DNA of 64,000 nt, taken from assembly GCA_030374765.1 (NCBI GenBank), contig JARGXX010000033.1, positions 496,001 to 560,000 on the forward strand. Reading direction: 5' to 3'. Shown here piece after piece: positions 999 through 56,810 of this stretch (position 1 is the first letter of the stretch; the number at the start of each line of letters is the position of its first letter). The stretch is from Agarophyton chilense (taxonomy: Eukaryota; Rhodophyta; Florideophyceae; Gracilariales; Gracilariaceae). A program made the position numbers and the translations under genes. Under the pieces are notes generated by a model. That model did not search any database and had not been told where the DNA came from. It saw only the letters and a list, made by a program, of their open reading frames with translations.

Positions 999-2834
999 CT
1001 AGGACCATCGACGAGACGTGCGAGCACGCAGGTTCGCAAAAAGCTGTGCGCGATCACCCTCAACTTGGTCCACGGGAAAGCCCGCATCTAAGAGAAACTG
1101 CCTCAGCGGATCCAAGCCTGGATCTTCGACCGGCACTGCACTCGGTTGTTTGGTAAACCCATGAACGTACTCTTGAGCAACTCCCGCCGCTGCGGATTGA
1201 TCGACGGATGTCGCTACGCCTGCCAGCTCTGGCTCGTCTTCGTAACCGAGTTCAGCCTCAGCTCCCGGCCCTTCCTCATACTGTTCCTCTCCGTTCTCGT
1301 ATGGAGTATCATCGTACACGTATCCAGTAAGCTGGTTCGGTGGCATGTCACACGGGTTCTCTCGAAGAAAGCGAGCCTGCTCGGAGATGATCAACTGGCG
1401 CGTCCAGGGGTCGTACCAAACGAAATCTCCAGCACTTGCTGTTCGTCCAGGAGAATGGTCGTGTTGTCTTGCACGAGTTCCGCGAGCGGATTGATCAGCT
1501 AGCACTCCAGACCCATCGACAGTGTCGATCAAATCCACAAGATGGAGGAAGTCTGCATGGTTCGCACGGGATCCCTGGACAAGGGAAAGATCGAGTTCTC
1601 TCGCATACTTTCGCGCTATGGGCGACGTGTACCAAACTCTAAAGGTATCATAAGCATCCCACAGGAGAAAGGCGGCCATCTACGCGATAAAATCGGTATA
1701 AACCACCGTCCGATATCTTGAGAACGGGTCGTTAACCAGCGCGGACCCGATGTAGGTGATCGCCGGTGAGAGCTCCACAGGACAACAACGAGAACTTTCG
1801 ATCGCCGCCCAATGCTCCGGAATACCGATGTAGCGCCCGAAGCGCGCGTTCCGCCGGAGGCGGTCAATCTCGATCATTTGATACGGCACCAAATAGCCCA
1901 AACGTGATTGAGTACGACGTTCCCAACAAAGATAATCTCAATAGGGAATGTCACGCTTTCGAAGGAAGCGCAACTCCGCACGGAGAAGAGGTTGCTGAAA
2001 GTAGAGAGCTGCATCACGCACACCGCGCACATCGCGCCAACCGCTAACATCGACTTCAACGAGTGTCTCGATATACGAGTAACTTTCACCGTTGGTACGG
2101 GCCTTCCAGGTATCTAGTTCCCAGTCCTGCGGGAGGAGAACCGTACTGATGAATCGGTGAAGACGCTGGTAAATCAGCTTGGTGAACCGCGTACGGGCTT
2201 CGGACAAGGTTTCCGTCGAATGTCACGCAATGGCGTTGTCTGGGAAAGCAATATGGCTCGCCCAGTCGTCGCTATTAATCGCGTGCTCCGGAAAACCGTC
2301 AGGGAAGTACCCACCGTGTACTTACTGTTGTATCAACGCGTCATCGCGGATAGCAACTGGATCAAACCAGGGCGCTTGCACGAAAAGTTCAACGTTGTCG
2401 AGAGGATCTCGTCCATAGAAATCCGCAGGGTGCGGGTAGCTTCTCTGAGCACGACAAGAAGGAGGTCGAATCACGCCCGCAGAGGCGACGTAAGCCGCGT
2501 TCGGCACGGGAGCCACGGTTGGCTGAGGTAACGGTACCTACCGGAATCCGGTGTACGGTGTGGGGAACGAACGGTATGGACCGAGTTGAGCAGTAGGCTG
2601 CGACGCATAACTAGCAGTGTTGGATGGAGCCCCAGAAGGCACATCCCCAGAGAAGGGCTATAACGGGTCGGACCCGGCGTTCGGATCTATCGCGAGAGAT
2701 TGAGCTGAAGAGCGGTGTGGAACAGAATGTTGTTGAGACCTGTAAGAGTTGGTCGGACGGCGAGGAATTCGTGATGACGATGAGTACCCGAAACAACGGT
2801 CCGAATGCGTATAAATGCTTCTTGCGTCCCCCAT
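999..2834 (-). pseudogene. Antisense ORF of family A element (aORF-A, 611 codons, six stops)
   Basis: Reading the minus strand from ATG at 2834, one frame runs 611 codons to the stop at 999, interrupted by stops at 2658-2660 (TAG), 2538-2540 (TAG), 2322-2324 (TAA), 2223-2225 (TGA), 1938-1940 (TGA) and 1680-1682 (TAG), but with no frameshift. The N-terminus is Ser/Arg-rich (SSSSRIPRRP). The C-terminal half aligns with the antisense proteins of E1 and E2: SPAITYIGSALVNDP here against PPVVVYRGSYFTRYP in E2 and PPVLAYFGSQISRNP in E1, and FVWYDPWTRQLIISEQ against WVVFNPILWTLDIPEQ in E2. The start codon is 25 bp from the 3' LTR. Function unknown; no standard retroelement domain is visible. The recurrence of position, strand, length and core sequence in three elements is what argues it was a real gene. 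Confidence 0.75.
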
Positions 2835-9099: not shown

Positions 9100-9547
9100 T
9101 CTTAGACCTTCGTGGTACTCTGGCCTAAGCAAGGAGGAGAAGATACGTCGTTTCCCGCAGAAGGTGGACGCATATGCGTCAGATTGCCTACAAGAGAAGA
9201 CACGAAAGAACAACCGAACAGAACAGTAGAAGTGACAACAATTTACTTCAAAAAGGACCTGTCGGTTTAGGAGCAATGGAATCAGGAATACCCGGGGTAT
9301 TGACTACCCACGGAGGAAAACCCGCGGAAATGCTAGGAGCCATCGACCTAAGAGGTAGCGAAAGAGCGGTAGCCCCGCCACTGGGGAGAGGAGTCGAAAC
9401 CAAAAAAGGATGAACAAACGGAACCGCCGGAGCAGGTGGCAAAACCGCAGGGTTCAAGTTTGCACCTAGAAGGGGATCCGACTAAAGATCAGATGGCGCA
9501 GCAGCAGAGACTCTTGCCAGATTGGCAACCTGACGTGTGGCCAGTTG
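9100..9547 (+). other. E1 spacer between pol stop and antisense ORF
   Basis: The pol frame stops at 9097-9099 and the antisense ORF ends at 9548. Short open stretches occur on both strands, but I see no domain. It corresponds to the shorter spacers of E2 (18518-18704) and A (678-998). Confidence 0.5.
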
Positions 9548-10876
9548 TTACATGTCCAACTGGAACTGATTCCAAAACTCACCAGGTTGGTTCAGCGCCT
9601 TCATGTATAGCGCATGGCGGGGCGGCAAATCTTCAAGGAGCGTCAATGCAGCGACCACAGAGGTAGACCCAGCCCTCTGAAAGTTGGTGACCCAAGACTG
9701 GCGAATTCGAGCCAGCAAACCGACCACGGCCGGATAATTCATCATAGGTTGAGCCGGAGGACGAGCAATACCCACTAACAGAGGTCGAACCTGACCAGCA
9801 ACCCGCGAGGAGTTCGGTTGAGTAGGAGTCACACCCGTATGGATAGGCGACTTACGACCTCGATGTAACGGCTCGGACGGGAAGGGACCAGCATATCGAC
9901 CAACTGGTGTCTCCACAGTACCTTGATAAGGTTCGGGGCTCGCGGGAGCTCCATAAACAGGAGGCTCCCCGGGATAGTATTGGGCGTGGCGAGGCACAAT
10001 CTCCCAAGTTGCGGGATCGAAAGCCTCCCAACCTTGATGTGAATCCCAGTGGAAATTCTTGCTCTGCTCGAGATACGAGTCCAAATCCTTCACGGTATAA
10101 TCGGTCCCCTCCACGATGTTCTCGTAACCAAATCGGGAAATATCCTGGGCAACCCTCGGAGGTATGAAGAAAATGCGACCTACAGGTTGAACACCATCTC
10201 GGTTTATGTCAGAGTCGGGATTGCGACCATCCCAATCGATACCGTAACGGGCGGCCTCCAGAGCTGGGATGGCAACCAATACGGTCCACTCCGAGAGGGC
10301 AGTCGACCAAATGAGGTAATACCGCTCTGGGTTCCGGGAAATTTGACTCCCGAAGTACGCCAAGACCGGCGGAGTGCGCACGCTCAGTGATAACGGAACC
10401 TCATAGAACTTCCACCACTCTGGTCGAAGCACGTACCAATCGCTTCTATCCTTCGTAGGTTGTGAGAAGTACTCCACGTTATGAAACATATGCATAACGC
10501 GAGTATACGATTTGTGAGTGCGAACGCGACTCTCCGTCGCTGCATCCTCGCCCCACCTACTGCGGTCAGCCCAATTTATAGTGGTGAAAGGCCGATTCAG
10601 GGAAACCAAGTCAGGTGAAACCAGAAGGCAATTCTCCGGAATAGACGTGTACTGGCACACTTGCACCGCAAATCGACGGTAATAATCCAGCTCCGGTTCG
10701 ATGCGCAAATACGGCAAGTCGCTCGGATCTATCGGCAGGATGAAACACCTCAAAGGTGTATGACGCTGCCGACTTTGGAAACATTCCAGTCGACCCTGAC
10801 GAGGTTAAGACTCTTGGTCCCTTTTCTTCAAGAGCAAGGGAACGGAGCGAAGGCGCTCGCAGTCCCAACGTGACAA
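9548..10876 (-). pseudogene. E1 antisense ORF, C-terminal part (aORF-E1; N-terminal part at 21797-22168)
   Basis: The minus-strand frame is open for 400 codons down to 9548 and has a TAA at 10805-10807. Upstream of 10876 it is cut by E2; when E2 and one target copy (10877-21796, 10920 bp, divisible by 3) are removed, the frame runs on into 22168. The joined ORF is 566 codons, close to the 602 and 611 of the other two. It aligns with aORF-E2 over VLAYFGSQISRNP, GRIFFIPPRVAQDIS and WEAFDPATWEIVP (against YRGSYFTRYP, GRLWWISPPVRKDIS and WVVFNPILWTLDIP). It is W- and Y-rich in the core and Pro-rich toward the C-terminus. Four nonsense codons in the joined frame and no frameshift contrast with the many frameshifts in E1 gag-pol. 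Function unknown. Confidence 0.75.
10872..10876. repeat. Target-site duplication of E2, left copy (GACAA)
   Basis: GACAA directly precedes the 5' LTR and recurs at 21792-21796 after the 3' LTR. Five-base duplications are usual for Ty3-type integrase. Confidence 0.9.
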
Positions 10877-12051
10877 TGTGACGCAACGAGCCGGGCCCTT
10901 ATTTAGGACAAGAAGCCATCCTCCTCCGACCTCCTTACACTAAGCAGTGACGACGCCGTAATAGCTGGCATACTGCCAGGATGAAATAACGTGCATGGCG
11001 CTAGGTGTCATACGTGTGGCAATGGCCGGCAGCTAGTTCGTGTGGTTGGCACCATACAGTGCTCTGCACTGCTGCCTTGTAATTTTTAATTGTATTTATT
11101 AGTTGTAATCTATCGTAATGGCTAACTGCTAAGCGGCCGGCGGTACTTGAGCGCCGGGTCGCCGGGGGCTATACCAAAGTAAAGTCCAAAGAAAGGCCAG
11201 AGGCCCTCCGAACTACTAGTTCGTGTCTTGAGACAATAGGGATCTCAGACCTTCGTTCCCAGTCGACGCCGACAAGACAGGCAACAGTCTGATCAACTGC
11301 TGCAGAGCTCGTGTTTTAGCCTATCGAGGATTCCCCGTCCAGTCCTTGCCCTCACGGCCATCGGTCGCCGCGTGGCGCATTGCACTTTCGCTCAATCTAT
11401 TGGACCGCTGGCAGTTCTACTGCCCGAGCAGATTGTAGACCCGTATCCGTTGGATACCGAGGTGTGGATCGGGAGCCTCGAATAAGTGAGTATCACTTCC
11501 AGGTGCAGCTGGTAAAGGCAGGCAGGCGCATTCGTCTGGGCGCTGGTTCAATCCCAGGGCTTGCCCTGCTTTGCTATCGTCACCCGTTGGGTGAGACTGA
11601 TTACCACTTTGTGGCGCCACTCGGCATAGCCAAGCAGACGCTCTCGTCTGAGCGCTGGTACAATCTCAGGGCTTGCCCTGCTTTGCTATCGCCACCCGTT
11701 GGGTGAAGTGGTTGGTGCGCCGTTGCCGACGTTAGGGTCGTGGCGCTCGTCCGGGCTCTGGTACAATCGCGGGGCTCGCCCCGGCTACTCGTCATACGCG
11801 GCGTATATCCAGGCCGATCACTTCGGTTCGTGTCGGATCGACACCACTCCGAGCACGTCTTCCGGACGCCAAGAGCTCCTGTGGAACGATAGGAGTCTGT
11901 GCCTAGTAGACACTCCTCGCCTGTGAGACGACGTCTCTCTTGAGTCGTTGCGGACTCTAGGGCCAGATTGCCGACCCCGGCTTTCCAGGCTCTGCCTGTG
12001 TGTAGCTCTTGCCGCCCGCAGCTGGTCTCCCGAGTAGCGCATTGCGTTACA
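10877..12051 (+). repeat. E2 5' LTR
   Basis: It runs from TGTGACGCAACG to TTGCGTTACA. A GC-rich body surrounds a short AT-rich island (TTTTTAATTGTATTTATTAG, about 11085-11104), the likely promoter core. Three imperfect repeats with hairpins lie at about 11510-11790. The terminal ATTGCGTTACA is shared with LTR C, suggesting related integration ends. Confidence 0.93.
11510..11790 (+). repeat. Three tandem ~100-nt units with covarying hairpins inside the E2 LTR
   Basis: Each unit has a CTGG-T-CAATC stretch followed by a 6-bp, 2-nt-loop hairpin: CAGGGC-TT-GCCCTG at 11555-11568 and 11667-11680, and CGGGGC-TC-GCCCCG at 11770-11783. The third differs by paired changes that keep pairing. The first two units also carry a second hairpin, CACCC-GTT-GGGTG, at 11581-11593 and 11693-11705. 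Spacing is 112 and 103 nt. The same units occur in the 3' LTR (about 21250-21530). Confidence 0.8.
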
Positions 12052-12055
12052 TTTC

Positions 12056-12073
12056 TGGTCTCCCGACTTAGAA
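12056..12073 (+). other. E2 primer-binding site
   Basis: TGGTCTCCCGACTTAGAA begins 4 nt after the 5' LTR. TGG pairs with the CCA end of a tRNA. Nearly the same 18 nt follow LTR A (62415-62432, minus) and LTR C (27037-27054, minus; 52562-52579, plus). I cannot name the tRNA. Confidence 0.8.
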
Positions 12074-12155
12074 ATACAAGAGACTACGCAGTCTCACTTC
12101 TTCAAATTCAAGGAGATACTCGTCTTTTTGCCCAGGTCGTCACCCGGACCCAGTC

Positions 12156-14474
12156 ATGAGCACCCGATCAGGTGCTTCTTTCAGGCGTTCGACTTCGAAC
12201 GACAATCAGTCCGTTTTGGGCAGTGGTCGAGAGGCTAGTTCTACAAAGAACAACGCCTCAGCACTCAGCGGAAGCAAACCCCCGAAACTTTTCCGAGTTG
12301 CTCAGTTAGCCCATGGACCGAAGCCCAGGGAGGCGCAGTCAGCGACTGCGAGAGATGCTGCCTCCTCACCCTCCCCAGTCGTGGGAGACACTTCTTCCTC
12401 CGGACCCGCAGGTCCTAGTGTGCCAGTGAACACATCATTGGTAGCTCTTGCTACCTTGCCTAGAGTGGAGTTCACTATTCTTCCCTTACTGAGGCTGGAC
12501 CCCCCAGCGAAACAGTCTACGACGACTGATACTGTTCGTCGCAGTAAGGTTTTTCCCCCTGAAAAAGGTCTTCATGCCCCACCCACGGGAGTAATTCCCA
12601 TCAACGTGGATGAAACTCCATCCCCAAGACCTCCAATGGACGTAGTACCGGTGCAAGTCCGACAGCTCTTCGTTGGCGAGGTCGTAGAACTCGTGCCCAG
12701 TCTCGTGAACCAGCAGGTTAACGAGGCTGAGCGGAGTTGGAAGGAATCCCTCGAAGCTCGACTCGCCGAACTAACTGTAAAGGTTGTAGGTGAAGTGCAA
12801 TCTGCGCTGCAACAACGCCTTCAATCTTTTCTTGCGGTCGAGATCCCCCGCCAGGTGTTGCATGCCACAGAACGAGGAGGTGCCACTTCTAATGGACAGG
12901 AGCTCCAGGGCCTGGAGACTCGAATTGTCAACCTGGACAAGAAGATTGAAGACCTAGAGTTCCAACGAGCTGCCCTGCAAGGCCAGGTGGCATTCCTTAT
13001 GAAGCATGGTACTTCTCCATCAGAAGGTGAGGTTCCCTCACACAAGCCCAGGGCTTCCAAAGCCAAGCAGGAGCGCAAACGCTCTAAGGTGAAGCGCAAA
13101 TCCGGTTCGGAATCTTCGTCCACGGATGATACATCATCCTCGAGCTCAGAGTCCGGTGCAGACTTGCGGAAGCATAATCTCGCAGAGATTAACCCTGCTA
13201 ATAACCGCTTCAAGAAAGTCTTGTCGTACAAGACATATCGGTTAGATAATCGAGCAACAAGCGAGAGCTCGAAAGTTAAGCGACTTGTCGCTTCTATGGT
13301 CAAGCGGTTCAATACCACCATGGCGAACCGTCGGTTCGAAGGAGCAGATCCTATGTCAGTCCTGACCTTTTTAGCCGCGTTCAAACGTGAGGCCAATAAC
13401 AACGGAATCTCCGAAGGTATGGCAAAGTTAGTACTCCCGTACTTCCTGACGGGCAATGCCCGTATAGCGTACGACAGTGCTTTGCACGTGGACGCGATTG
13501 ACGATTCCTCCACGGGAATCAAGTCATGGCCAGAGGCTATCATATTGCTGCTACGCAGCTACGCGAAGGATGAGTATATCCAGGATCTAGTACATGATCT
13601 TCGATTACTACGCCAGAGGGCTGGTGAGACTGAGCAGTCTTTCGGACAGCGTGTCCGCCTGATGTTCTCGAGACTTGGTGGGGTTTATTCACAGGAAGAG
13701 CAAATTGCTTCCTTCATCGAAGGGCTCTTGCCCAGCGTCGCTTCGTGTATGACACGAGACCGCCAGCTCCACCGCGATCGATTTACGACCTTGGACGCTG
13801 TGGTTGAACTGGCTATGTCTCATGGATATACGTCAAGGCTGACGCGACCACTCAGGCACCCGTTGAATGTTAAGACGTATCAGGTTAAGGCATCGGTGAT
13901 GTCACTGGAGGGTACGAACCTTTCCACCGATACGGCCCTGACAGGCCGTATTCTTGGCGACGACGCCATACTGCATATCGGCACCGATGTAGAGGGTCCG
14001 CCTACGGACCCAAGCTACAGTTGTAGCATAACAGAGGCGGAAACCCTTCCGCAATCTGACCGGTAGGGACAGAGTGACCCCGCGCTTCCGGTAGAGCCAA
14101 ATTATAACCCCCGTATGGAGGAGTGGGCGCAGCCCAAGCGCGTTGGATGGGTTGATCGAAGGCTCCAGCGGAGCCAGCATGCGCCGCGACGCAAAGCTTA
14201 CGGAGCTTGTTAGTTGTGCGCCAATTTCGACCACGTGGTCGCTGATTGCGAGTAGATCACTCCGGCCATTCGAGCGCAGGCTCGAAAGCGTATAATGGAG
14301 GCTTCTACAGAGATAGCTACAAGGATGCCGGCGATGGTGTACTATGTGGCAGGACTCACGCCTCCACGAAGAGGATACCAGGCCCTACGACATAGCGCGG
14401 TGTCCGCGCAACCCCAGGTCCTTTGCAAGGACAACGCTGAGCCCCAAGCTCAGGGAAACGTCCCCCGGACTTAG
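12156..14474 (+). pseudogene. E2 gag (three internal TAG codons)
   Basis: ATG at 12156 opens a Ser/Thr/Pro-rich N-terminus (about residues 1-185). A coiled-coil-like segment follows (about 190-290, LETRIVNLDKKIEDLEFQ). Then come a basic patch and a Ser run (about 305-340), and the capsid domain (about 350-560) with NPANNRFKKVLSYKTYRL and GISEGMAKLVLPYFLTG. The zinc knuckle at residues 685-698 reads C-stop-LCANFDHVVADC; the E1 copy has Trp at the stop (CWFC), so TGG became TAG at 14211-14213. Other stops are TAG at 14064-14066 and 14253-14255. The proper gag stop is TAG at 14472-14474. There is no indel over 2.3 kb. Gag assembles the particle and binds element RNA. Confidence 0.9.
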
Positions 14475-14504
14475 AGGCTCAAGTATCCTCTTCTAAGACT
14501 CCGG
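14453..14504 (+). promoter_or_regulatory. Programmed -1 frameshift signal between E2 gag and pol
   Basis: The heptamer GGGAAAC at 14453-14459 is in the gag frame as CA[G GGA AAC], the X XXY YYZ form known to drive -1 slippage. The -1 (pol) frame is closed by TGA at 14438-14440 and gag ends at 14472-14474, so only 34 nt allow the shift, and the heptamer lies there. After a 5-nt spacer (14460-14464) comes a stem: CCGGACTTAGA (14465-14475) pairs with TCTAAG (14492-14497) and TCCGG (14500-14504), with a 2-nt bulge. The gag stop lies within the stem. Family C has GGAAAAC at the matching place. Confidence 0.85.
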
Positions 14505-17500
14505 ATATCAGAGACGAAGGTGACGAAATCGTTACCAAGTGTCTATTAGACAAGTTTGCGGAAGTTGTTACGCCGCAACAGGACCCCGTCCTCAAAATAG
14601 GACGCTTCAACTACAAAGTTGTAGCTCGTGTGGGCTTTACCAAAGACGATACCATGGAGGTTTTATCCGTATTGGATACAGGGGCCGCTCCTAACCTCAT
14701 CCACCAGGATGCAGTTCCGGGGTTGAGGATAACCCCATTGGCACCCGCTCAGAAGTCCCTCGGACTTAACGACGCAGAAGGGCATGCCCTCAAAATACGC
14801 GGCACCACCCTGCTAACCGTCCGCATCGCGGATTATCTAGCACGCGTACCATTCCTGGTCGCCGAACATCTGAGTACAGACGTGATCCTAGGATGTGATC
14901 TCATCGATAAGCAGGTTGACGCTATCCACCCTAAGAGGGGGGCCCCATATATGAGTAACTACTCATCTGTTCCGATATACCGACGACCGGCATCTGATTG
15001 GCGTCGCACGCCACCGAAGGGTGAGAGAAAGAAGCTAAAGAAAAACCCCTTCTACCATTGCAGACGTATTCACGTCGCACGGAAGATAGCCCTTTCTCAT
15101 AGCTCTGAAACCATCGTCTTGGCGAGGTGCGCCGATGGAGGAAGTGTCTTCCTCCAGCCAGAAGAGAAGCTTTTCGACAAATATCACGTTCGTCTGGCGA
15201 ATGGCGTCGCGAACGTTCGCAGCAACAGACCGTTCAGAGTTATTGTCGCCAACTTCGCTCGTCACGAAGTGACGCTTTGTAAAGGACAAGTCCTTGGTCG
15301 TGCTGTTCCGCAGCGCCCGTTAGACATCTACGCAATCCTGCACGATCGACAACCCGAGGAATCGGAACCCGGAAAACTCAGGCCACACCCGGCTTGTGAC
15401 ACCAGAGAGTCGCGGACGACCGAGCCTCCAACGAGACTTTTGGACTCGATAGATCTCTCGGAGACGTCGCCAAAGATGCAGCGTGCCGTGAAAGAGATGC
15501 TTGGTAAGCATGAAGACATGTGGAGCGGTAAGCTTGGAGAGATTCGAGGACCTCCTCATCGGATCAAGTTGATGTCAGGGGCAACCCCTGTTCACTGGCA
15601 GCCTTATCGAGCTGGACCGAAGATTAGAGAACACGAGTTCGCCGAAGTTAAGCGTATGCTTGGTGCAGGTGTCATCGAACCGGCCAGGTCAGAGTGGCCA
15701 AGCCCAGTTGTCTTTGTTCCGAAACCCGACGGAAGCCTACGCTTCTGCGTAGATTATAGGCGCCTCAACGCCCTTACTGTGAAGGATACCTATCCCCTAC
15801 CCCGCATAGACGCGTGTCTTGACAGCTTGGGCGATGCCCAGTTCTTTACCACGCTAGATTACAATAGCGGGTATTGGCAACTGTCCGTCGCGCCTCAAGA
15901 TCAGGAAAAAACCACGTTCACGTGTCACGCAGGGACCTATAGGTTCACTCGTATGCCCTTTGGGCTTTGCAACCCCCCAGCAACGTTCCAGAGAATCGTG
16001 GATATCCTGCTAGCAGGATTCAAATGGCAATGTTGCCTGGTGTATATTGATGGTGTCATCATCTTCTCCAAAAATGCGGACGAACACATACGACATGTGG
16101 ACGAGATACTCACTGTTCTCAGAAACGCAGGGTTAACCCTGAAGTTGAAGAAGTGTCACTTCTTTCGGAGGTCAGTAGATTACCTTGGCCACGTAATCAA
16201 ACCGGGCCTGTTGGAAGTTGCCACGGAGAACCTTGAGGCTCTCCAGAAGGCGCGCCCACCTGCGACGCAGACTGAAGTTCGATCCTTTCGCGGAATGTGC
16301 AACGTCTACCGACGTTTTGTGCGAAATTTCGCGAAAGTTGCTGCACCGCTGACGGAGCTTACGAAGAAAGAGGTTTCACCTCGATTGCCGCAGCTCACAG
16401 CTGAGCAGTTAGAAGCGTTCGAAACGCTTAAGCAAGCACTGACGCACCCGCCAGTGTTAAAGCTACCAAGGGCAGACCGCCCGTTTACGGTGGAGACCGA
16501 TGCCAGCGCTGGCCAGATTGGTTGCGTCTTGACGCAAGTTCATAACGAAATCCATCATCCAGTTGGGTATTGGAGCCGGATCTAGTCCGCCACTGAGTAG
16601 AGATACTCCACTACGGAGCGAGAATGTCTCGCAGTTGTGTGGGCGCTGACCATATTACGGCCTTACTTAGAGCGCACGCACTTCACAGTGATCAGCGACC
16701 ACCAGTCCTTGAGATGGCTTCTCGGATTGTCGGACTCCGACGCGAATAGCCGCCTAACTAGATGGAGGTTACGCCTCGCAGAGTATGATTACGAAGTCAT
16801 TTACAAGAAGGGCTCGGAAAACCAAGCGGCCGATGCGTTGTCGCGCATGCCCACAGATGGTGAGACCGCTATGAGACCTTCAGAGGATATACGCTGTTTT
16901 GTGTGTGAGCCGGAGGCTACAAGCCCGAGCATCACGTTCTGCAATGCCTCGCATCCTTGGGATGCCGCCCTCGACGTTGAAGAACATGAGCTGACGGCGG
17001 TTTCGCTAGAAGAATTGCTCGCCGAGCAAGCCACAGACTCGTTCTGTGAGGACATGAGAGAACGATCTCTCCATGACCCCAAATACCGTGTGTACACGGA
17101 CCATGATGGACTATTAGTCCGCAAAGCTAGAATAGATCAAAGCGAGCAGGTGCTTACACCAATATCGCTAAGGGAGCGCGTGATGCATATGCATCATTAC
17201 CCCCGTGTCGAAGGACACCCGGGAGGACGAAGGATGTACGCCACAATGCGTCGACACTATTACTGGCCAAGTATGGCTGCCGATGTGTACCGTTTGGTCA
17301 ACGAGTGTGACTCGTGTGTGAAGGAGAGGATTTCTCTTGTCAGAAAAAGCTCCCGATTGAAGCTGTTCTCGGCGACCGCACCGCTGGAAAGTGTCGCGAT
17401 CGACATCCTGGGGCCACTTCAGACTACGAGTAGAGGTAATCTTTACCTGCTGGTGATCTGTGACCGCTTCACAAAGTTGAAGAAGACCATCCCTTTGTCG

Positions 17501-18517
17501 AACACCGATTCATTCGCAATTGCAAGGGCGTTCTGCACCCACTGGGTGTTTGTATACGGACCACCCGTCACTGTCCTGTCGGGCAATGGATCTAACTTCG
17601 CCTCGAAGTTCTTTCAGAGCGCTTGCCAAATCCTTGGCATCAAGAACCTCTTCACGTCCACGTACCATCCGCAGACCAACGGTCAAGTCGAGAGGTTCAA
17701 CCGAACCATGTTGTCTGCCTTGAGGCATTATGTTGCTGAGCATCAGCACAACTGGGACCTTTACAGCGATGCGCTGACCTTTGGGTACAATACACAAGTC
17801 TATTCTAGCACCGGCCATTCCCCGTTCGAGTAGGTACTCGCTAACGCCCCGGAGCTGCTGGCTCTACAAAGACTCGGAACCCTAAAAGGGAAGGCTCCTC
17901 GCGAGATTAAGATGCAGTTTTTGACACAGCTGCGTCAACTGCTGTCGCGCGCGACCGGTGCCTTAACTAAAGCGCAGCAATGCTACAAGCAGCGGTACGA
18001 TGCTCGCGTCGTTGAGAAGCGAATGCCGGAACCTGGTACGTATGTGTACCTGCGGAGGCACTTAGACCTTAGGGAGCCAGAGGTTCCAGGTGAGAAGATC
18101 TCCCGTAAATTGAAACGAAAGGTCTTTGGACCTTACAAGGTCATCAGCGGTGACGAGGAAAACCACACGGTTCTTATTGAGAACGATGGACTTGAGGAGT
18201 GTCATAACTTGGACCACATGGTCATTGGAACGTCTAAGCCGCCCGCGGTGACGGGAGATGACGAAAGCGTCATAGACAAGATAGTGGGTCATACCCAGGG
18301 AGTGGCGGAGGAACGCAAGTACCAAGTTCGGTGGCTCGGATATACAGCAGGGGAAGACACCTTCCACACAGCTGATAGCCTGCCGTGAAACCTCGTGGTT
18401 CTCTACTGCCGTCGACGGAAGATCAGCGTCCCCAACCGGGATGAGATACTTCTGCGAGCTAACCATGGCTCCACTCATGACCTAGTGGTACCCGCTGAGG
18501 CAAACTCGCATGTGTAA
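14453..18517 (+). pseudogene. E2 pol: protease, RT, RNase H, integrase, chromodomain (stops, no frameshifts)
   Basis: Read in the -1 frame from the slip site, this is one frame of about 1350 codons ending at TAA 18515-18517. Protease: VLDTGAAPNLIH and ILGCDLIDK (about 14665-14910). RT from about 15480 with FCVDYRRLNAL and FTRMPFGLCNPPATFQ; the catalytic box reads YIDG, not YIDD. RNase H: VETDASAGQIG, then STTERECLAVVW. Integrase: HHYPRVEGHPGG and CDSC zinc ligands; the second catalytic Asp is missing (VLSGNGSNF where E1 has LLTDNGSK), while GQVERFN is kept. The chromodomain is at about 18260-18420. Internal stops: TAG 16583-16585, 16598-16600 and 17831-17833, and TGA 18386-18388. Both Asp to Gly changes would abolish activity. 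Confidence 0.92.
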
Positions 18518-18704
18518 ACACAACACTGAAACTGTTTGACCTGTGCGGGCTCCCCGCTATTGCGGCCGGAGCAGAGCCCGTCCCAATCCCAACACATTCG
18601 CTAGATGGCTAACCTACTGGAATGGTAGAGCAAAGGAGGCAAGCAGGTGTTCAAGGGAACGCATTTGTTTTATGAAAAGAAGGTTTGGACAGCTACACTT
18701 GAGA

Positions 18705-20513
18705 TTATTCCTCCTCACTATCTAGGAGTTCGTCCCCAGGGGCCGTCGACGGCCCTGCAGGCACGGCAGTGCTGCTGATATCAGGGATAGCCCCCGTAGT
18801 CGGAGTGGTTGGTGCGGCTACTGCAGCAGGCCCCGGCGTTGACGAAGGGTTGTTGGCCATCCTGGCCTGGAGTTGAGCAAGGCTCGTCACCCCGTAGGCC
18901 TTGAGGTCATCCAGTAGAGCTGCAGCGGAGTTCTCTTTTGCAAGCTCACTTGGCGGTGCGGGCACCAATCCGGGTTTTGGCCGTTTAACCAACAGTTGGT
19001 CGACCATGTTGACATCCCTCGGTTCGGAGGCCAGCTTCGCTAGTTGTTGGCGTCGCCATTCTGCAAGGCGTACCGAGTTCGTCGAGTTCGACGAGGTAGA
19101 TCTCCGGCCTACAGAGAGAGGAGCTATGAAGTTGGCCCGCGGATTCTCCACAACGAGGTTGCCTTTTTGGTCATGGCCGACTAGGTATTGTTCTGGAATG
19201 TCCAGAGTCCAAAGGATTGGGTTGAAAACAACCCAATCACAGCCGCGATGCACCGGAGTTGCTCCATCGTTGTGGGCAGGGCGCATGGCGCCACACATTC
19301 GGACGCGTGGCGTCGCAGGGAATTCAGGAAACACCTCGTCTTTCGGAAGAGAAGACCACCAGATCTTGTCGATAGATTCGACTAGAGTCTCCAGACTCTC
19401 CGCTTCGGCGTTGCATCGCTCGTCATCAGCCAGATCGGGCAGGACGGCAGTGAGATTAAGATCGCTTATGTCCTTGCGTACCGGTGGAGAGATCCACCAT
19501 AAGCGACCCGCGCGGGCCTCATAGATGAGATGGCGTGCCACCGAGCAGGCCCATTCAGTGCGGAGCACTGTTTGGTATCCAGGATACCTGGTGAAGTATG
19601 AGCCACGGTAGACGACTACCGGCGGAATTTCGTTGATTAAACCGTAGGGGACTTCAACTTCCTCCCACCACCATGGGAAAGGCCATGATATGTCGCGGAT
19701 GACATCTTTCTGGAAGCAGTAGACCTCGACTTGGTGGTAGGCTACCAGAACCTGGTACTTATGTCGGCGCATGCGCTCGAATTTTCGCCAAGAATGTGGC
19801 GTGTACGTCATGATTTTGTCGCGCCAAGCGTCCATCGGAGGTAGTACCCTTGGGGCGAAGTCGCCTGACGCATCGCGCCTACAGGGGTCGAGGACCCAAT
19901 TGGCTCCGTTGTCACGGATGACCGTCGGAGGCAGCACACGGAGTATTTTCGGATTCCGTAGGATGCGCTCAATCTCCTCGGCACCCATGCCGTTGTGGAC
20001 TTCCTCGAAGGTGGTCAGCCAGGGAATCCCCTCATCATCCTCGCAGAGGTACGGGAAAGGCAAGCAAAGCTTGTGAACCAGAGGGCGGCCGTCCGCCCAA
20101 CTTTCAACCCTGTCAAGGGAGCTTTCGCGTAGCGTGCTCGCTACGTACGGTTCATCCGCCGGATGTCGGTAGAACTCGATGTCTACCCAGCCGATTATGT
20201 CATCGGAAATTAAGCGGCGGAACGCGGCAAGACGCGCTCGTCGTTCGATTACCAGCCACAAAAAGTGACGGCGACCCCACACGGTCAGGAGCAATGAAGG
20301 ATGGCTAGCCATCTCCCTGAAGGTGTACGAGCGGAAGCACTCTTCGATTTCTGCGACATCTTGTAGCCATGTGGCTACTTTCGCGAGTCCTATTGAGACT
20401 TCAGGACGAGACAAGGTTGTCTCTGAGGCCCAGCGAACCCGTTGAAGCGATCGCTCGAAGAGCGGTTCACGGTGGCCATCGCGGCGGTGCTTGCAGGGAT
20501 CCGTTCCTATCAT
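18705..20513 (-). CDS. Antisense ORF of E2 (aORF-E2), 602 aa, unknown function, intact
   Basis: This fully open minus-strand frame lies tail-to-tail with pol (188-nt gap) and starts 105 bp from the 3' LTR. The protein is Trp-rich (over 20 W), with clusters such as ISWPFPWWWEEVEVPYGL and KIWWSS. Residues about 30-480 form the conserved part; motifs shared with aORF-E1 and aORF-A are PPVVVYRGSYFTRYPGY, GRLWWISPPVRKDIS and WVVFNPILWTLDIPEQ. The tail (about 480-602) is low-complexity Ala/Pro/Thr and ends acidic (DELLDSEEE). No signal peptide, membrane segment or known catalytic motif is visible. Some plant Ty3 elements have extra ORFs here, occasionally antisense, but I do not recognise this family. 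A capsid-like, envelope-like or silencing-suppressor role would be guesswork. It is intact while gag-pol has seven stops. Confidence 0.75.
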   Translation of the reverse strand: MIGTDPCKHRRDGHREPLFERSLQRVRWASETTLSRPEVSIGLAKVATWLQDVAEIEECFRSYTFREMASHPSLLLTVWGRRHFLWLVIERRARLAAFRRLISDDIIGWVDIEFYRHPADEPYVASTLRESSLDRVESWADGRPLVHKLCLPFPYLCEDDEGIPWLTTFEEVHNGMGAEEIERILRNPKILRVLPPTVIRDNGANWVLDPCRRDASGDFAPRVLPPMDAWRDKIMTYTPHSWRKFERMRRHKYQVLVAYHQVEVYCFQKDVIRDISWPFPWWWEEVEVPYGLINEIPPVVVYRGSYFTRYPGYQTVLRTEWACSVARHLIYEARAGRLWWISPPVRKDISDLNLTAVLPDLADDERCNAEAESLETLVESIDKIWWSSLPKDEVFPEFPATPRVRMCGAMRPAHNDGATPVHRGCDWVVFNPILWTLDIPEQYLVGHDQKGNLVVENPRANFIAPLSVGRRSTSSNSTNSVRLAEWRRQQLAKLASEPRDVNMVDQLLVKRPKPGLVPAPPSELAKENSAAALLDDLKAYGVTSLAQLQARMANNPSSTPGPAAVAAPTTPTTGAIPDISSTAVPAGPSTAPGDELLDSEEE

Positions 20514-20617
20514 ACTGTGAGTGGCACAGTTGAAGCAATATCAGCGATGCTGTGCTGTATTGTGATCGGGATCACTCTTGGCTGTAGCGGGGACGCTACA
20601 AGCTGAGAAGGGCGTGA

Positions 20618-21791
20618 TGTGACGCAACGCGCCGGGCCCTTATTTAGGACAAGAAGCCATCCTCCTCCGACCTCCTTACACTAAGCAGTGACGACGCCGT
20701 AATAGCTGGCATACTGCCAGGATGAAATAACGTGCATGGCGCTAGGTGTCATACGTGTGGCAATGGCCGGCAGCTAGTTCGTGTGGTTGGCACCATACAG
20801 TGCTCTGCACTGCTGCCTTGTAATTTTTAATTGTATTTATTAGTTGTAATCTATCGTAATGGCTAACTGCTAAGCGGCCGGCGGTACTTGAGCGCCGGGT
20901 CGCCGGGGGCTATACCGAAGTAAAGTCCCAAGAAAGGCCAGAGGCCCTCCGAACTACTAGTTCGTGTCTTGAGACAATAGGGTTATCAGACCTTCGTTCC
21001 CAGTCGACGCCGACAAGACAGGCAACAGTCTGATCAACTGCTGCAGAGCTCGCGTTTTAGCCTATCGAGGATTCCCCGTCCAGTCCTTGCCCTCACGGCC
21101 ATCGGTCGCCGCGTGGCTCATTGCACTTTCGCTCGGTCTATTGGACCGCTGGCAGTTCTACTGCCCGAGCAGATTGTAGACCCGTATCCGTTGGATACCG
21201 AGGTGTGGATCGGGAGCCTCGAATAAGTGAGTATCACTTCCAGGTGCAGCTGGTAAAGGCAGGCAGGCGCATTCGTCTGGGCGCTGGTTCAATCCCAGGG
21301 CTTGCCCTGCTTTGCTATCGTCACCCGTTGGGTGTGACTGATTACCACTTTGTGGCGCCACTCGGCATAGCCAAGCAGACGCTCTCGTCTGAGCGCTGGT
21401 ACAATCTCAGGGCTTGCCCTGCTTTGCTATCGCCACCCGTTGGGTGAAGTGGTTGGTGCGCCGTTGCCGACGTTAGGGTCGTGGCGCTCGTCCGGGCTCT
21501 GGTACAATCCCGGGGCTCGCCCCGGCTACTCGTCATACGCGGCGTATATCCAGGCCGATCACTTCGGTTCGTGTCGGATCGACCCCACTCCGAGCACGTC
21601 TTCCGGACGCCAAGAGCTCCTGTGGAACGATAGAAGTCTGTGCCTAGTAGACACTCCTCGCCTTGCGACGACGTCTCTCTTGAGTCGTTGCGGACTCTAG
21701 GGCCAGATAGCCGACCCCGGCTTTCCAGGCTCTGCTTGTGTGTAGCTCTCGCCGCCCGCAGCTGGTCTCCCGAGTAGCGCATTGCGTTACG
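20618..21791 (+). repeat. E2 3' LTR
   Basis: It runs from TGTGACGCAACG to TTGCGTTACG, about 98% identical by eye to the 5' LTR; the final base is G where the 5' LTR has A. It carries the same three hairpin units. The preceding stretch (about 20601-20617, AGCTGAGAAGGGCGTGA) is only a weak polypurine tract. Confidence 0.93.
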
Positions 21792-21796
21792 GACAA
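21792..21796. repeat. Target-site duplication of E2, right copy (GACAA)
   Basis: It matches 10872-10876. Removing E2 plus one copy restores a continuous antisense frame in E1. Confidence 0.9.
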
Positions 21797-22168
21797 GCCC
21801 AAGTAGGTATCCAATTGTGGTCTGGTAAGAGCTGCCGGCAACGACGAACTCTTTACCGCCACAGGCTAATAGTGCTTCAACTGGTCATTGTTCGTCACCT
21901 AGTCGAAGTTAATACCAAAAGGTCCATACTGACTCGTCGTGCAGTTTGGCGCACCAAACGCGAGATTGTGAGCCCAATTGGTCTGGGTCGTCGAAGGAAG
22001 TCCACCACTGCATTAGTACGGGTCAGCCGGAGTCCGAGGGAAGAACTCAGTTGCAGGGACAGGCATACTGCGAAACCCAATGTTGGTAGGGGTTCGCGAA
22101 GTCGAGCGAGTTACCCTCTTGGTAGTACCACCGCGTCCACGCCCACGAGATGGGCCGCTACCTGACAT
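21797..22168 (-). pseudogene. E1 antisense ORF, N-terminal part
   Basis: ATG at 22168 (minus) opens an Arg/Gly-rich N-terminus (SGPSRGRGRGGTTKRVTRS) that could bind nucleic acid. Stops occur at 22013-22015 (TAA), 21899-21901 (TAG) and 21866-21868 (TAG). At 21797 the frame jumps over E2 to 10876 and continues in phase. LTRPQLDTYLGLSRW across the junction resembles LSRPEVSIGLAKV near the start of aORF-E2, so the join lies within a conserved part of the protein. Confidence 0.7.
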
Positions 22169-23316
22169 GGTTGGGAAGGCCGTAGATCAACCCGACGAAC
22201 GAGGTGATGACTCGACCTCCACCGCCGCGGTGAACACCAGCAGGTATTCATCCTTCTGAAGTAAAGCCTCCTCGGTCCGTTCTGAGGAGACGACCAATGG
22301 ATCCAACCTTTCCAGTAGAACCGACACTGACCTTTCGGGTACAACAGTGGCCGGCGTGCGGTCGCGAGCGGGTCCAGACCTTTGAAGTATCGTGGAACGG
22401 GACCAATCCCACCTTAAAGGCATAACTGCAGGGGTATCAATCCCCTCGGAATCTCCAACTTCGTTGACCTCAATGGTAACCGGCATCTCACCTCTCTCGA
22501 GCGCTGGTGCTGCTTGTGGGGACGAACCACCCCTTCGAGGTATCGTTGACGAACCCGCGAGGCGGCACGAGGTGCACCGACGTGGTACCGAATGGGTTCA
22601 AACGCGTGCGCGGAGGTGGCGCGATCCTGTCATTAACTTGAGGGTAAACTGGAATGCAAAACCGGAAAAAGGTCGCGTAATTACCTACGGGGCCGCTCAA
22701 CACCAATAAGGTCACACAACGGGAAGCTTCCACCACGGACCCATGCCAACACCTCAATGGTTGTATCGACGCAGGCTAAGGCCCCACCGGCGCCACGAGT
22801 CAATCCTTACAAGGTAGACGAGACCTGAAAGGTCGAGAAGCCAGAAAACCTTCAGGGAAAAGCCGGACAGTACGGTTACGGTCGCGACGCCGCCAATTAA
22901 GGGCAGTACTACCTGAAGGGTGGTCAAGCCGTGGGAACGACCAGGCGGGACGGCGCTGCGCAGGGACCTAGGAGGGGAATGAAGTTGGAGTAACCGGGAA
23001 GGATGCGATACCAACTTGGTTAGACGGTGGGCGATGCGGAAGCAGAATCGCAAGCAAGCAGGGCCACTACCAAAAAGGTGTCCGAGAGCTTGCTAGGTAC
23101 ACTGCATTTCCCTCATGACAGTCCCTACCTGAGTATTTGTCGGTCAATTCGTGCGCCGACGTCGTCGCGCGCCCTCCCCCAACCGATACTGGCGCCGAGT
23201 TCTGAACCTCAAGGGATCCAGCGCCGCGCCCAGACACTACTCAGATGCCCGCGCCGCTGTCGCCTGCTACAACTCTATGGTGTCATGAAGGGAGACACGG
23301 GGCGTGCCTCGTGGGT
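22169..23316. other. E1 region between antisense ORF start and 3' LTR
   Basis: This 1.15-kb GC-rich stretch belongs to E1 internal DNA. It has open frames of up to about 105 codons on both strands, none with a recognised domain. By position it should hold the promoter and leader of the antisense ORF; that is inference. Confidence 0.5.
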
Positions 23317-23328: not shown

Positions 23329-23962
23329 TGTCGTATAGTGGCTGAAGGGCTGACCTTTGAGGTGTCTAATACACTATGCTGACCTTGTAGGTGATGGGTG
23401 CGAGGAATCATCGGACACGTGGCTCTGGGCGAGCTACCATCTAGGTGTTGTCAGCCACTTGTAGTGTTGACATGTACCTTCTGGTTCAGTAATTATTAGT
23501 GATAGTAATTGTAATTATGCATTTTTTAGTACAGTAGTTGAGTGGCCACCTGGCACTGTAGCCAGTGCTGGCCAGGTCTCTGACACTAGGTCATAGACCG
23601 TGCCTTGCTGGCACCTCTCGGGTGATCTGGAGAGTGCAGTCCACTGCATATAGGGAACTGCACCTCCCTCATCCTTATCTCAGAAAGGCAGGCATCACGT
23701 GGGTCACGACTATACCTTTTGGTTTATTGTTTCTCAACTATCACACAGACTTTCCCGCGCGTCGACGCCTACCATCGATTACCTACACGGTATAGGCTAG
23801 TCGCCCCGCCGTTTGCCCCTGCGGTTTTTCACGGTGCCCTGTTACCATCGAGGTTTACTACGTCTACCTTCTAAGGTTGAGCTTCAACACGCTCCCTACG
23901 GTTGAGCGTCACAACGCTCCCGAGAAAAGACAGTAGCATAGCCCAGAGGTGATTGTACGACA
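23329..23962 (+). repeat. LTR B, copy 1 (3' LTR of E1)
   Basis: This 634-bp LTR has perfect 7-bp inverted ends, TGTCGTA/TACGACA. It matches the solo LTR at 49446-50105 over its full length. An AT-rich island lies at about 23490-23530. It abuts the protease region of the reverse element C1 at 23963, so E1 inserted into C1; the other target copy lies outside the window. Confidence 0.9.
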
Positions 23963-24762
23963 GTTAGAGTGATTCCAGTAACTGTACCTTTATGTAACCG
24001 TACGGGTCCATCTCGGAAGTTGCTGATCGTGACCAAGAAGAGCTTATTGAGGCGGATGTCCATTAATACATCTGCCATTAAGGTGAGGCGCTTCAGAACC
24101 GTTTTCGGGTGGTTCTGTATCGCCACGAGACCTGACGACTGTGAATGGACAGATACATTGATCTGGGTCATCTGGGGCATCGTTATGGTTTTCGATAAGC
24201 GAGCCTTATTGGACTTAGTATCCTCGGATTTAACTGCTCGTTTGAGGTTAGCTTCTGGCACTTAGACGAAACCGATTATGGAGATGGAAGGTGCGCGATA
24301 GAACGCGACTATCCTAAGGCCTGGATAAATGGCCTTAAAGTATCGATCGATGAAGGAGGTCCCTAGGATTGTTTCAGCGCCCAAATTAGGGCATAAAAGG
24401 AACCATATGCGGGCTTTTATTCGTCCTAAGTGTATTTAAAGTGGTACTATCCTTTTAATGTCCACTAGTCTACGTGATGCATCGTTAATCCTGGGGGTCT
24501 TCCCTTCCTGAACGAAATCTTTCCAACCAAATGAGAGTAGCTTCGAATGGACCAAATTCGTACCAGCGCATGTGTCAAGTACTGCTGTTGCCACTCGGCA
24601 GCTGTTGGAACCTAGTTTCATGGCTGCCCGAACTTTATAATTCTCCTTCCTGAGGATACAGACGGGGTCGTTCCTGTCTTCCAATTCTGGTCCATCCTGG
24701 GTTGTCCAATTGTTGTGGTTTCTAATGGGAGGTGAGGAGCTCCTTGGCTCCTGACCGTCCAA
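23963..24762 (-). pseudogene. C1 Ty3 pol fragment: aspartic protease region
   Basis: On the minus strand, VATAVLDTCAGTNLVHSKLL matches the C2 protease VATAVLDTGTGPNLVHSKLL; the catalytic DTG is DTC here, so the copy is inactive. Further on, VHSQSSGLVAIQNHPKTVLK and LFLVTISNFRDGPV match C2. The frame has breaks near 24260-24440. It is cut at 23963 by the insertion of E1. The upstream frame is open in the -1 register from the end of C1 gag (24819) into this protease. Confidence 0.85.
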
Positions 24763-24812
24763 TTGGTTTAGCCATGGACTTAAAGTGGGAGGATTTGTCT
24801 TGCATCGACCCT

Positions 24813-26932
24813 TTAAGCGTTTTCCGATGGGATTTTCGTTTCGTCTTGAGGATGGGGTTCCTCTTCGGGGTCGTCCGTGGAGTCTACAATGGCATGGACC
24901 TGTGGGGCTTTCATTGAGGTATTCGAAGGGGTGGCATAGTGGGAGCTTCTAGGTGTTCCTGTGGCTCGTTTCTGTGCCTTGTTAAACATTCTTTCGGATC
25001 TTCGCACCTTTCAATTATCTTCCCTTAAGGCTAGGAGATGTTTTCGTGCGTGCTCAGGCAGATAATTCGTTCAGTCACAGGGTTGGACCATGGAAAAGCA
25101 GAGGAAGTAAGCCCTTGGTGAGCGAACACAAACGTCCTTGTGGGGTGGAAAGAGGGGATACTTGGTTGTGGGTGGTCCAGTGGTCGCTATAGTTCCTTGG
25201 GAGGTATATGATGAGAACCCCGTGGGAAGGCCACCGAAATGAACCGCGAGGATATCTCCCGAGTCGGCATAATGGAGTGATGATTACATGTCCGATTCCG
25301 TGGAGCTAACAAAATGGGCTTGGTTTGGTTTACGCAATGGAGTTGCGTGTCTTCTGGATATATCAGCATTGCGCCTGGAAGTCTTGTAGGTTTTGTGGTA
25401 AACTTCGGCATATATGACGAGCCGGTGGAAGGAGAATTGTAGGTTTTCCGTGTGGTAACTACTAAAATGTGTCCGAGTGGCAGGCAGTAATCCCGTGATG
25501 AAATTAAGTTTGAGAAGTTCTTCAGAGAATACGTTTCCGAATTGGTAAGCCTACTTTGATACGTCGTCTGCGAAAGCCATTTCGGTCATGTTGGAGCTCT
25601 TCCTAAAGGATATTACTTCCTGGTGGACGTTCATTATAACTTCATCCGTGGCATAGGTTCTAAAGAGAAGGTAATGAACAACCTGAGGATATAACGTGGG
25701 GAGCTCAAGGTCTTGAGCATCCATGAGGTCAGTGGTGCCAGATATATTCGAAACCATTCGGTCACGCGCCTGTCCTGTGAGGAAGAATTGGGAAAGGTAC
25801 AGAGCGGCGCCCTCGTGGACACCGTTCTGATCACAGACCGTACGGAAAAAACTAAGAAACCTAAGGAAAGAAATGGGATCAGAACGCGAGAACTTGTCCG
25901 TCATGGTTGGTTGCATCCGTTTGGCCCATTCGGCGACTCTTTGAGCCACTGAACCAGATAATTTCGGGGACCTGTCGGCCAAAAGGTAATTCGGGTAGTG
26001 TAGAACCTTTAGGAAAAGTTCCTTTAGTTGTTTTCAGTGGTTTGAGGCCTCGAACGGCAGCCTCATTCACTTCCGAGTCGGTCGTTTTGGTTGAGTCCGA
26101 AAGGTCTCTTCTTTTACTCTTTCTGTTCTTCATTCTCCTACAGCTACTTCGTTTCTCTCCAGCGGAATGGGGACCTAAAGAATCGATCTCCCTATCAGAT
26201 CCGATGGAGCCCTGAGATCGCTATACCTCATATTATCCTTTAGGTCGAGCAATCTGTCTCTCTTCTAGACGCGGAGCTTCTCTGCAGCTCCTATATTGTA
26301 TTTCCGTTTGATTTACCTAATGGTGTTGCCGGCGAGGGGCGGGTAATACCACCACTTTTTGGGGGTTCGGTAGGGGGTTGCCGTATGGAAACCGGATTGT
26401 TGACTTGTGGAGTGGTCCTAGGGACCGCATTGACTGACTGGCTGGTGATTGCTCCTTGAATGGCCTGTAGAAGGGAGTCTTTGAATAACTGAGACTCTAA
26501 TTCCTTAGAGACTATTCGCGGAATGAGGTAATCCGTATAGTCAGCGATCGCCGTAGTGGGTGGCATGTCCACAATGGAATCCACATGGACTGAGCAGAGC
26601 TCACACAGATGGGGCCATAGAAGGTAGTCAAGCCCTATTAGAGTGTTCTCTCTAATTCCTTCGGTCTTACGGGGTTCTCCTTGGGCTGTCCCTGGCCTAG
26701 AGGTGGCCCTGGTGAGGCATTCTCGTAACCTCGCTGCCACCGTCGGTTCTCGGCGAATCCTTTCAGGGTTGTCCACGAAAGTCAGCACTTCTTGCGGCTG
26801 GCTTCCCGTGCTCTTGCGGTCGCTAAAGGTATCAACCTGAGAGTCGGGCGTCATCTTTCGCGTTGTAGTTGCAACTTATCCTTCCGTAGGAGTCTTATGG
26901 TCTGGTCGGTTGGCTGTGTTTTCAGCATCCAT
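24813..26932 (-). pseudogene. C1 Ty3 gag
   Basis: The start ATG is at 26932, with a TAA after 18 codons. Then 187 codons are open to 26291 (NPERIRREPTVAARL, LCSVHVDSIVDM), a basic Ser-rich part (about 26133) and the capsid (RMQPTMTDKFSRSDPISFLRFL, CDQNGVHEGAAL, FFLTGQARDR, 25982-25551). A degenerate zinc knuckle (LCFSMVQPCD) lies at about 25090, with its last Cys codon now a stop. Gag ends at TAA 24813-24815, with the heptamer GGAAAAC (minus strand, 24825-24819) two codons earlier. Several frame changes separate the parts. The sister copy is C2 at 52684. Confidence 0.8.
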
Positions 26933-39289: not shown

Positions 39290-39790
39290 TCACACATTTC
39301 GCAGAGCAGCAACTAAATATCGCACAAGCTTCGTAACGACCAGGATACTTCGCCGAGCACTCTCGACGATAGGGAAGTATAAAAAAGACTTTGTCTTGTT
39401 GACCATGAGCATAAGTTTCGTGTCATCCTTTTCATCTGTACCGGCGGTAGCCTGACTGTGCATTAACCGGCTGAGGAGAGCTCCTTCATCCACCTTTCCA
39501 TTTCCGGTGCGCGGGAAGTCTCCCATGGACAACACCTGTGATGGAACGCAGTAGTATGGTAGATGCGCTTTAACCACGTGTGTCACTTGGCAGGCTTTCA
39601 CATTGGCAGGAATGAGAAACGCTACTAGAGAATAGTTCATCTTCAATACAACCTTGTTGACAACAGCAGCGGATTCAACAAACGACAACACGCCATCCAA
39701 CTCGACGCGAAATTCCTTCAGGGTCGTTCTTAACAAGCGTGAACGAGCGTGATGTGAAGTGAAGTGAACGGGATATATTGAAAATTTCAT
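39290..39790 (-). pseudogene. AMP-binding (adenylation) enzyme, C-terminal fragment
   Basis: On the minus strand FRVELDGVLSFVESAAVVNK and LPYYCVPSQVLSMGDFPRTGNGKVDEGALL match the C-terminal lobe of acyl-adenylating enzymes: the FRIEL-type hinge region and the A10 motif with the invariant Lys in NGKVD. The N-terminal lobe with the ATP-binding loops is absent upstream (above 39790), so this is a fragment of about one quarter of a normal enzyme. The tail after position 39430 looks unrelated. It could come from an NRPS-like reductase or a fatty-acid CoA ligase. It is a dispersed fragment among transposon remnants. Confidence 0.65.
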
Positions 39791-56187: not shown

Positions 56188-56810
56188 TGTAGTATTCTGC
56201 TCTGTCGGAATGCCGATGAAAGATTTTTTTGGCTAAGTATAATGATGCTCATAAGTGAGTGCCAGGACTGGGATGAAGTTATGAAGCGGCACCCCACAGA
56301 AAGTCCGTGAGGTGGTATGTTACACTTGAGATCTCGATCTGCCACGGCGCATCCGATTCGAACCTTTGCAGGGAAATACCGGATTTGCAACGGCACATAT
56401 ACTGTAGTGAGTAGCCACGTGGCAACCATTATCCCGTACTGTAGAGGAGTTAATCGGCTAACCATGTTCATATCAAGATAATATTATGTGCGACGCTCAC
56501 CCCTGTGCATCTTAATTAAGGCACAGAAGGGAGCGCCGACTCCAAAGTAAAGGAGACAACAAACGGATTCACAACTGTCTTGTTCCTTATTCAGGATTCC
56601 TTAACCGGAGATCCAGATAAGCTACAACAATTAGTTGTCCGTTCCATAGTACCAACCACTCTCATTGGACAGTGGGGCCTTACAACCCCCATTCTAGCTC
56701 TCAAGTGTTGTGCTCTACCACATCTTCCCCTTAGCCGCAAGCACCCATTCGACAGTCCCGAACACTGTGGCAGGTGTCTGCTCTTTCTCTAGAGCGGATA
56801 CTACAGCTAA
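56183..56810 (+). mobile_element. Solo LTR A (copy 3) with target duplication GCTAA
   Basis: The 618-bp LTR (56188-56805) runs from TGTAGTATTC to GGATACTACA, with GCTAA on both sides (56183-56187 and 56806-56810). It sits inside the C2 RT between LDAN and the next residues. Removing it restores the RT alignment, which fixes the LTR A boundaries for the other copies. Confidence 0.93.

Follow-up and report, generated by a model that had tools for sequence, protein, structure and literature searches.

An antisense reading frame between pol and the 3′ long terminal repeat is common to six Ty3 families or branches of the Agarophyton chilense genome

Zhao et al. reportedly described in 2011 an antisense gene, brtn, in Boty-like retrotransposons of Botrytis cinerea. 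We studied a stretch of 64,000 nt from Agarophyton chilense (hereafter the window), which contains nested Ty3 elements. One of them, E2, carries an open reading frame (ORF) between pol and the 3′ long terminal repeat (LTR), antisense to gag-pol, and we refer to this frame and its homologs as aORFs. The layout itself is already known, as an antisense ORF between pol and the 3′ LTR is found in the plant elements Grande, RIRE2, Retand and PvRetro13 and, as brtn, in fungal Boty (PMC7264820). We found that homologous aORFs occur at the same place and on the same strand in six Ty3 families or branches of the 79.8-Mb genome, and that the aORF codes for a protein and has been retained by selection.

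Boty resembles E2 in its gag-pol with a chromodomain (PMC4227169) and in having, on the antisense strand, a gene that lies between pol and the 3′ LTR (PMC7264820, PMC8365987); the two are set side by side here by layout. By description, the plant gene23 of maize Grande and the aORFs of rice RIRE2, Wallabi and Gran3 can also be set beside the aORF studied here; gene23 is a nuclear protein with its own promoter (PMC7264820). Retand likewise has an antisense ORF at this place, and 97% of clusters contain antisense ORFs with TRP28 (PMC11963269). However, Retand belongs to a non-chromovirus lineage, and its TRP28 domain (Transposase_28, PF04195 as numbered in PMC7264820) gave no match in 15 aORF proteins at E values up to 10. 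ORF2 of PvRetro13 has the same layout and is said to contain an SMC domain (PMC7264820), whereas no SMC match was obtained for the same 15 proteins in this Pfam-type family search, in which the HMMER filters discard most weak matches. Human T-lymphotropic virus (HTLV)-type antisense genes, with an antisense promoter inside the 3′ LTR of HTLV (PMC7264820), are alike in layout only. Our literature search for a described family of this kind, which took in the best 6 to 20 papers per query, noticed nothing beyond the plant examples and brtn. The original prediction, made from the sequence of the window, knew of no family like this one; that holds for the protein, whose family appears new in the libraries searched and beside which brtn is set by layout only. 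The arrangement, in contrast, has already been described from plants and from the fungal element Boty (PMC7264820).

The antisense frame of E2 is intact and was located as follows.
18705-20513, minus strand: E2 aORF, 602 amino acids, stop codon included, between pol and the 3′ LTR.
Reading the frame confirmed the predicted 602 open codons; the frame lies on the minus strand and converges tail-to-tail on pol. The stop codons of aORF and pol are separated by 316 bp, and the ATG of the aORF lies 103 bp from the start of the 3′ LTR. When the stretch between pol and the 3′ LTR (18389-20616) was simulated 2000 times with a first-order model, the maximum stop-free length was 404 codons (mean 157), compared with 611 in the actual sequence, and none of the simulations attained 600 codons.

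E2, E1 and A are the aORF-bearing families of the window, while F618, G1 and G2 were identified outside it, G2 from a single copy. The genome search placed aORFs at at least 34 sites for E2 (25 full-length rows), at least 71 for F618, 103 for E1, 150 for A and 74 for G1; these counts are lower bounds, only the best candidates having been scored, and the queries were 401 residues for E1 and the last 226 residues only for A. The frame was stop-free over the match in 7 of the 25 full-length E2 rows, in 42/71 F618 places and in 48/74 G1 places, and stop-free frames of 602-835 codons are present in five families. Profile comparison, in which each E value refers to one pair and the E2 profile included P0002-P0004, linked E2 with F618 (1e-20), A (3e-13) and E1 (5e-10), and F618 with A (9e-51) and E1 (2e-6), and gave 1e-3 for A with E1. 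Shuffle tests (60 each) among the E2, F618, E1, A and G1 aORFs agree with the profile homology, and direct alignment of the window copies gave z scores of 12.4 for E2 versus the E1 piece and 13.6 for E2 versus A (100 shuffles each). Overall, the E2 aORF is 21-24% identical to those of F618, A and E1. Homology between the aORFs of different families is supported by these alignments, which beat their shuffled controls, a check that the original prediction had called for. Its claim that different Ty3 elements share the ORF, and not as a recent copy, is likewise supported by homology over the six families or branches, with the homologs at the same place and strand and tail-to-tail with pol as it had described. 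The letters that it quoted for three common blocks are E2's own; similar blocks occur in the other families, but they are not identical.

The position of the aORF beside pol was then compared among families; both LTRs were seen in E2, and F618, A and G1 were placed by the adjoining end of pol. Among the matches listed, an opposite-strand aORF lies downstream of all 31 E2-family pol places, and a listed pol lies beside 31 of the 34 E2 aORF places; of the other three, the one on C88 has pol alongside in locus L029. Absence of the ORF from full-length relatives, which had been named in advance as telling against the idea, was not the rule in E2, although single copies can be without it (L044, below). 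One pol group (at least 73 places), which shares 52-54% identity with E2 pol in the integrase part, contains the branches G1 and G2, both with an aORF. Here, 23 pol-aORF pairs were found among the 73 G-like pol and 74 G1 aORF places listed, all on opposite strands and none on the same strand, with gaps of 2071-2090 bp; the other 50 G pol places are not thereby shown to be without an aORF, because both lists are incomplete. Among five stretches of this group (L044-L048), the aORF is present in L045-L047, L048 merely extends L045, and L044 is without it. The pol of L044 is open in the stretch seen. At many G-group pol places, one uninterrupted frame runs for about 1800-1900 codons, which is longer than the split pol of E2 and may join gag with pol.

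The aORF thus has the layout of the antisense aORF-3R class, between pol and the 3′ LTR and antisense to gag-pol, and its carrier is an element with a Ty3-type pol and a chromodomain. RVT_1 and rve were matched in E2 and F618. The Chromo match reached 31 bits in A, above the cut-off, and fell just under it in G1 (23.3 against 25.1); in E2 it was weak (16.6 bits, E 0.0078, under the Pfam cut-off). No Chromo match was found in the F618 frame scanned, and the chromodomain piece of E2 matches further on in F618. Over short pieces, A pol is 55% identical to F618 pol versus 42-43% to those of E2 and E1; of the other three families compared (F618, E2 and E1), F618 comes closest to A, in pol as well as in the aORF, and E1 is the most distant in the aORF. 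As judged from these comparisons, a single ancient gain of the aORF before the families of this genome diverged, followed by inheritance with pol, is likely.

Selection was measured between G1 and G2. The ratio of nonsynonymous to synonymous substitution rates (dN/dS) of the aORF was 0.25 with L046 and 0.24 with L047 over 514 aligned codons, approximate values because synonymous sites are near saturation, and the differences were concentrated on third codon positions (151/136/282 with L046). The five other frames gave 0.38, 1.27, 1.54, 1.67 and 1.76; the value of 0.38 belongs to the opposite-strand frame with common third positions, which in E2 has 9-12 stops per copy. In pol, the ratio was 0.19 over 110 codons of the integrase end and 0.26 over 425 codons, a loose linker among them. 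The aORF is present in most copies, as in the 31 listed E2 places, and conserved like other proteins of the element. A dN/dS near 1 among intact copies had been proposed as a further sign against the gene; the ratio is low between families, at about 0.25, and weakly below 1 among recent copies. A 411-codon open frame was also seen opposite the G1 aORF (2568-3803 in L046, 681-1916 in L047), which is probably a mechanical shadow of aORF codon usage.

The protein starts with a variable segment that is often rich in Pro and Ser. A conserved core of about 200 residues comes next, and a loose linker then leads to a short C-terminal motif that is helical, the helices being taken from low-confidence models. 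The core begins with an Arg-rich, ERRxRxR-like block, which reads FERMRRHK in E2, FERRSRSR in F618, WERRTRSR in A, DERRWRAR in G1 and FERRARSR in G2; it is present in all six families or branches and degenerate in E1. It is followed by a PxWWxxVEVP-like block and then by an EWAxxVAxHL...GRLWW-like block. The protein had been called W-rich, and W indeed makes up 3.7% of it in E2, but the enrichment is modest, with 1.8-3.8% in 15 other proteins listed. By simple hydropathy, no 19-residue mean exceeded 1.6 in seven of eight aORF proteins, which leaves these seven without an Env-like transmembrane segment; E1 alone reached 2.04. The aORF proteins gave no Pfam family above cut-off, no match among PDB sequences and no fold match, negatives that are limited by the poor structure models. 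A protein database search, which scored only the 8000 best candidates, identified five relatives of 501-740 residues from outside the assembly of the window, known as proteins without genomic context.

Taken together, we tentatively read the aORF as an accessory gene of a chromodomain-type Ty3 lineage that is transcribed antisense and encodes a nucleic-acid-binding regulator, a reading that falls a little short of an even chance. The gene would have been gained once before the families diverged and passed on with pol. Its transcription would run leftward, separately from the gag-pol RNA, from a putative antisense promoter that we place in or beside the 3′ LTR because of the 103-bp gap in E2. 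The protein may bind nucleic acid via the conserved Arg-rich block and could regulate RNA or cDNA of the element that encodes it, for instance in RNA export, transcription or nuclear entry. By analogy, a regulatory role like that proposed for plant antisense ORF proteins is most likely; a review of plant aORFs proposes a role of this kind (PMC7264820). A wider version is possible and held with still less confidence, namely that the aORF represents an unrecognised family, unrelated to the described antisense ORFs, which is ancestral to the chromodomain Ty3 clade in several eukaryotes and acts as a required antisense regulator of replication.

Several observations count against this reading of the aORF. 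Congruence with pol is partial, since the E2 aORF scores 220 with F618 and 150 with G1, while the E2 integrase is 52-54% identical to the G group and 49% to F618. The A-E1 link is unconvincing alone, being the weakest pair (hhalign probability 22%, z 4.6). L044 is a G1 copy without the aORF, which has lost about 1.9 kb compared with L046 and L047 (2896-3098 and 3087-4972 of L044), with a 12-bp overlap at the join. Among recent E2 copies (13 of 34), the ratio of the proportions of nonsynonymous and synonymous differences (pN/pS) was 0.61 in the aORF versus 0.79-1.14 in wrong frames, a weak signal; E2 pol gave 0.48 in both pieces (8 copies). In F618 (11 copies), the aORF gave 0.57 and four wrong frames 0.85-1.03, while the opposite frame with shared third positions gave 0.55. 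E1 (4 copies) gave 0.62 versus 0.72-0.96 in wrong frames, and one G1 pair gave 0.68 in the aORF versus 0.99 in the pol of that pair. The weak signal within families fits neutral decay of copies after insertion. As for the protein, the net charge is negative in six of eight aORF proteins, the AlphaFold models are poor (mean pLDDT, the predicted local distance difference test score, 43 and 51), and no fold or domain match in the Pfam and PDB searches backs nucleic-acid binding.

The main rival is that the protein acts in counter-defence by blocking host silencing of the element. The convergent sense and antisense layout would give rise to double-stranded RNA, so that a suppressor would benefit the element, and the strong divergence outside the core (the 21-24% overall identity of E2 with F618, A and E1) is as in an arms race; however, Pfam and PDB gave no homology to a known suppressor, and the G1-G2 dN/dS is low, not raised, and we consider this role unlikely. 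A captured host gene still at its host job is improbable: capture by LTR elements is known (PMC7264820), but captured genes are usually sense-oriented (PMC7264820), no Pfam family was found, and in the survey of aORF places away from pol, which covered E2 and G only, 31/31 listed E2 pol places carried the aORF and 31/34 aORF places had a listed pol. An Env-like or structural particle protein is slightly more improbable again, for although the aORF occupies the place of env in retroviruses, it is antisense, seven of the eight proteins stay below the hydropathy of 1.6 that E1 exceeds, and E2 already has gag.

Two further alternatives deny the protein any role. LTR elements have known antisense non-coding transcripts (PMC7264820), and the frame could be a by-product of a functional, regulatory antisense RNA, but this is largely refuted by the codon-position pattern, with a G1-G2 dN/dS of 0.25 in the aORF against 0.38-1.76 in the other five frames, and by frames that stay free of stops for 602-835 codons in five families. 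A chance open frame, as in GC-rich stretches, is refuted here. Long mechanical ORFs do occur on the opposite strand, as the 411 codons in G1 illustrate, but the 2000 simulations, the homology between families and the low dN/dS all argue against it.

The remaining parts of E2 in the window are listed below.
10876-21790, plus strand: E2 element, with two LTRs, gag, pol in three open stretches and the aORF.
10876-12050, plus strand: 5′ LTR, from LTR comparison.
12156-14066, plus strand: gag ORF, with a Retrotrans_gag (PF03732) match.
14630-16585, plus strand: pol part 1, protease, reverse transcriptase and start of RNase H.
16637-17833, plus strand: pol part 2, end of RNase H and integrase.
17912-18388, plus strand: pol part 3, with the weak chromodomain match.
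20617-21790, plus strand: 3′ LTR, from LTR comparison.
The two LTRs differ by 17 mismatches over 1174 aligned positions. Each contains an 84-bp unit twice (window 11511-11706 and 21252-21447), with the copies 112 bp apart and 87% alike. TAAATA boxes lie on the aORF strand of the 3′ LTR at about 20646 and 20839; they may be due to chance and give no evidence of a promoter. Elsewhere, head-to-tail E2 arrays were found with five copies on C5 (10318-51059) and two on C78, at a step of 9734 bp, and with two on C7 at 9745 bp. The step is about one LTR plus the internal part (9740-9741 bp in the window), as expected of LTR-sharing arrays, and assembly error is possible. G1 forms similar arrays of three copies on C68 (step 9197 bp) and two on C77 (step 9249 bp).

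E2 is inserted within the aORF of E1 and splits its frame in two; the A copy of the window is listed beside the two E1 parts.
9311-10876, minus strand: C-terminal part of the E1 aORF, decayed, with homology to P0009 residues 314-835.
21779-22736, minus strand: N-terminal part of the E1 aORF, decayed and severed by the E2 insertion, with homology to P0009 residues 1-319; its final few bases overlap the E2 LTR end.
999-2834, minus strand: aORF of A, 611 codons interrupted by six internal stops.
The A frame reads exactly as predicted, and over 2834-1014 this copy is 86% identical to an open relative across 607 residues. E1 had been given 566 codons and four stops; the four internal stops are there in the pieces named (one in 9548-10876, three in 21797-22168), but the gene is longer, because homology to the stop-free relative P0009 (835 residues) spans 22736-21779 and 10876-9311. 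Stop-free copies of the E1 and A families exist elsewhere in the genome, while those of the window are decayed. With E2 gag and pol as tblastn queries, further Ty3 fragments were identified at 55019-57186 (plus strand) and 23899-26015 (minus strand). The window ORFs 58095-58805, 39290-39790 and 59749-60369 matched acyl-CoA oxidase, AMP-binding C-terminal (below cut-off) and DUF7869, respectively, and are host genes or parts of other elements.

Accessory genes in antisense are on record from a small number of plant Ty3 lineages and a single fungal one, and here one protein family is common to six families or branches, with more than 400 aORF places listed in total. The six-family profile gives annotators a search query, and the stretch from pol to the 3′ LTR should be read on both strands. 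With stop-free copies in five families and selection measured between two, the role of the antisense protein is directly testable. If the wider version is true, the aORF would be as regular a part of these elements as gag and pol, a third gene overlooked since annotation reads one strand.
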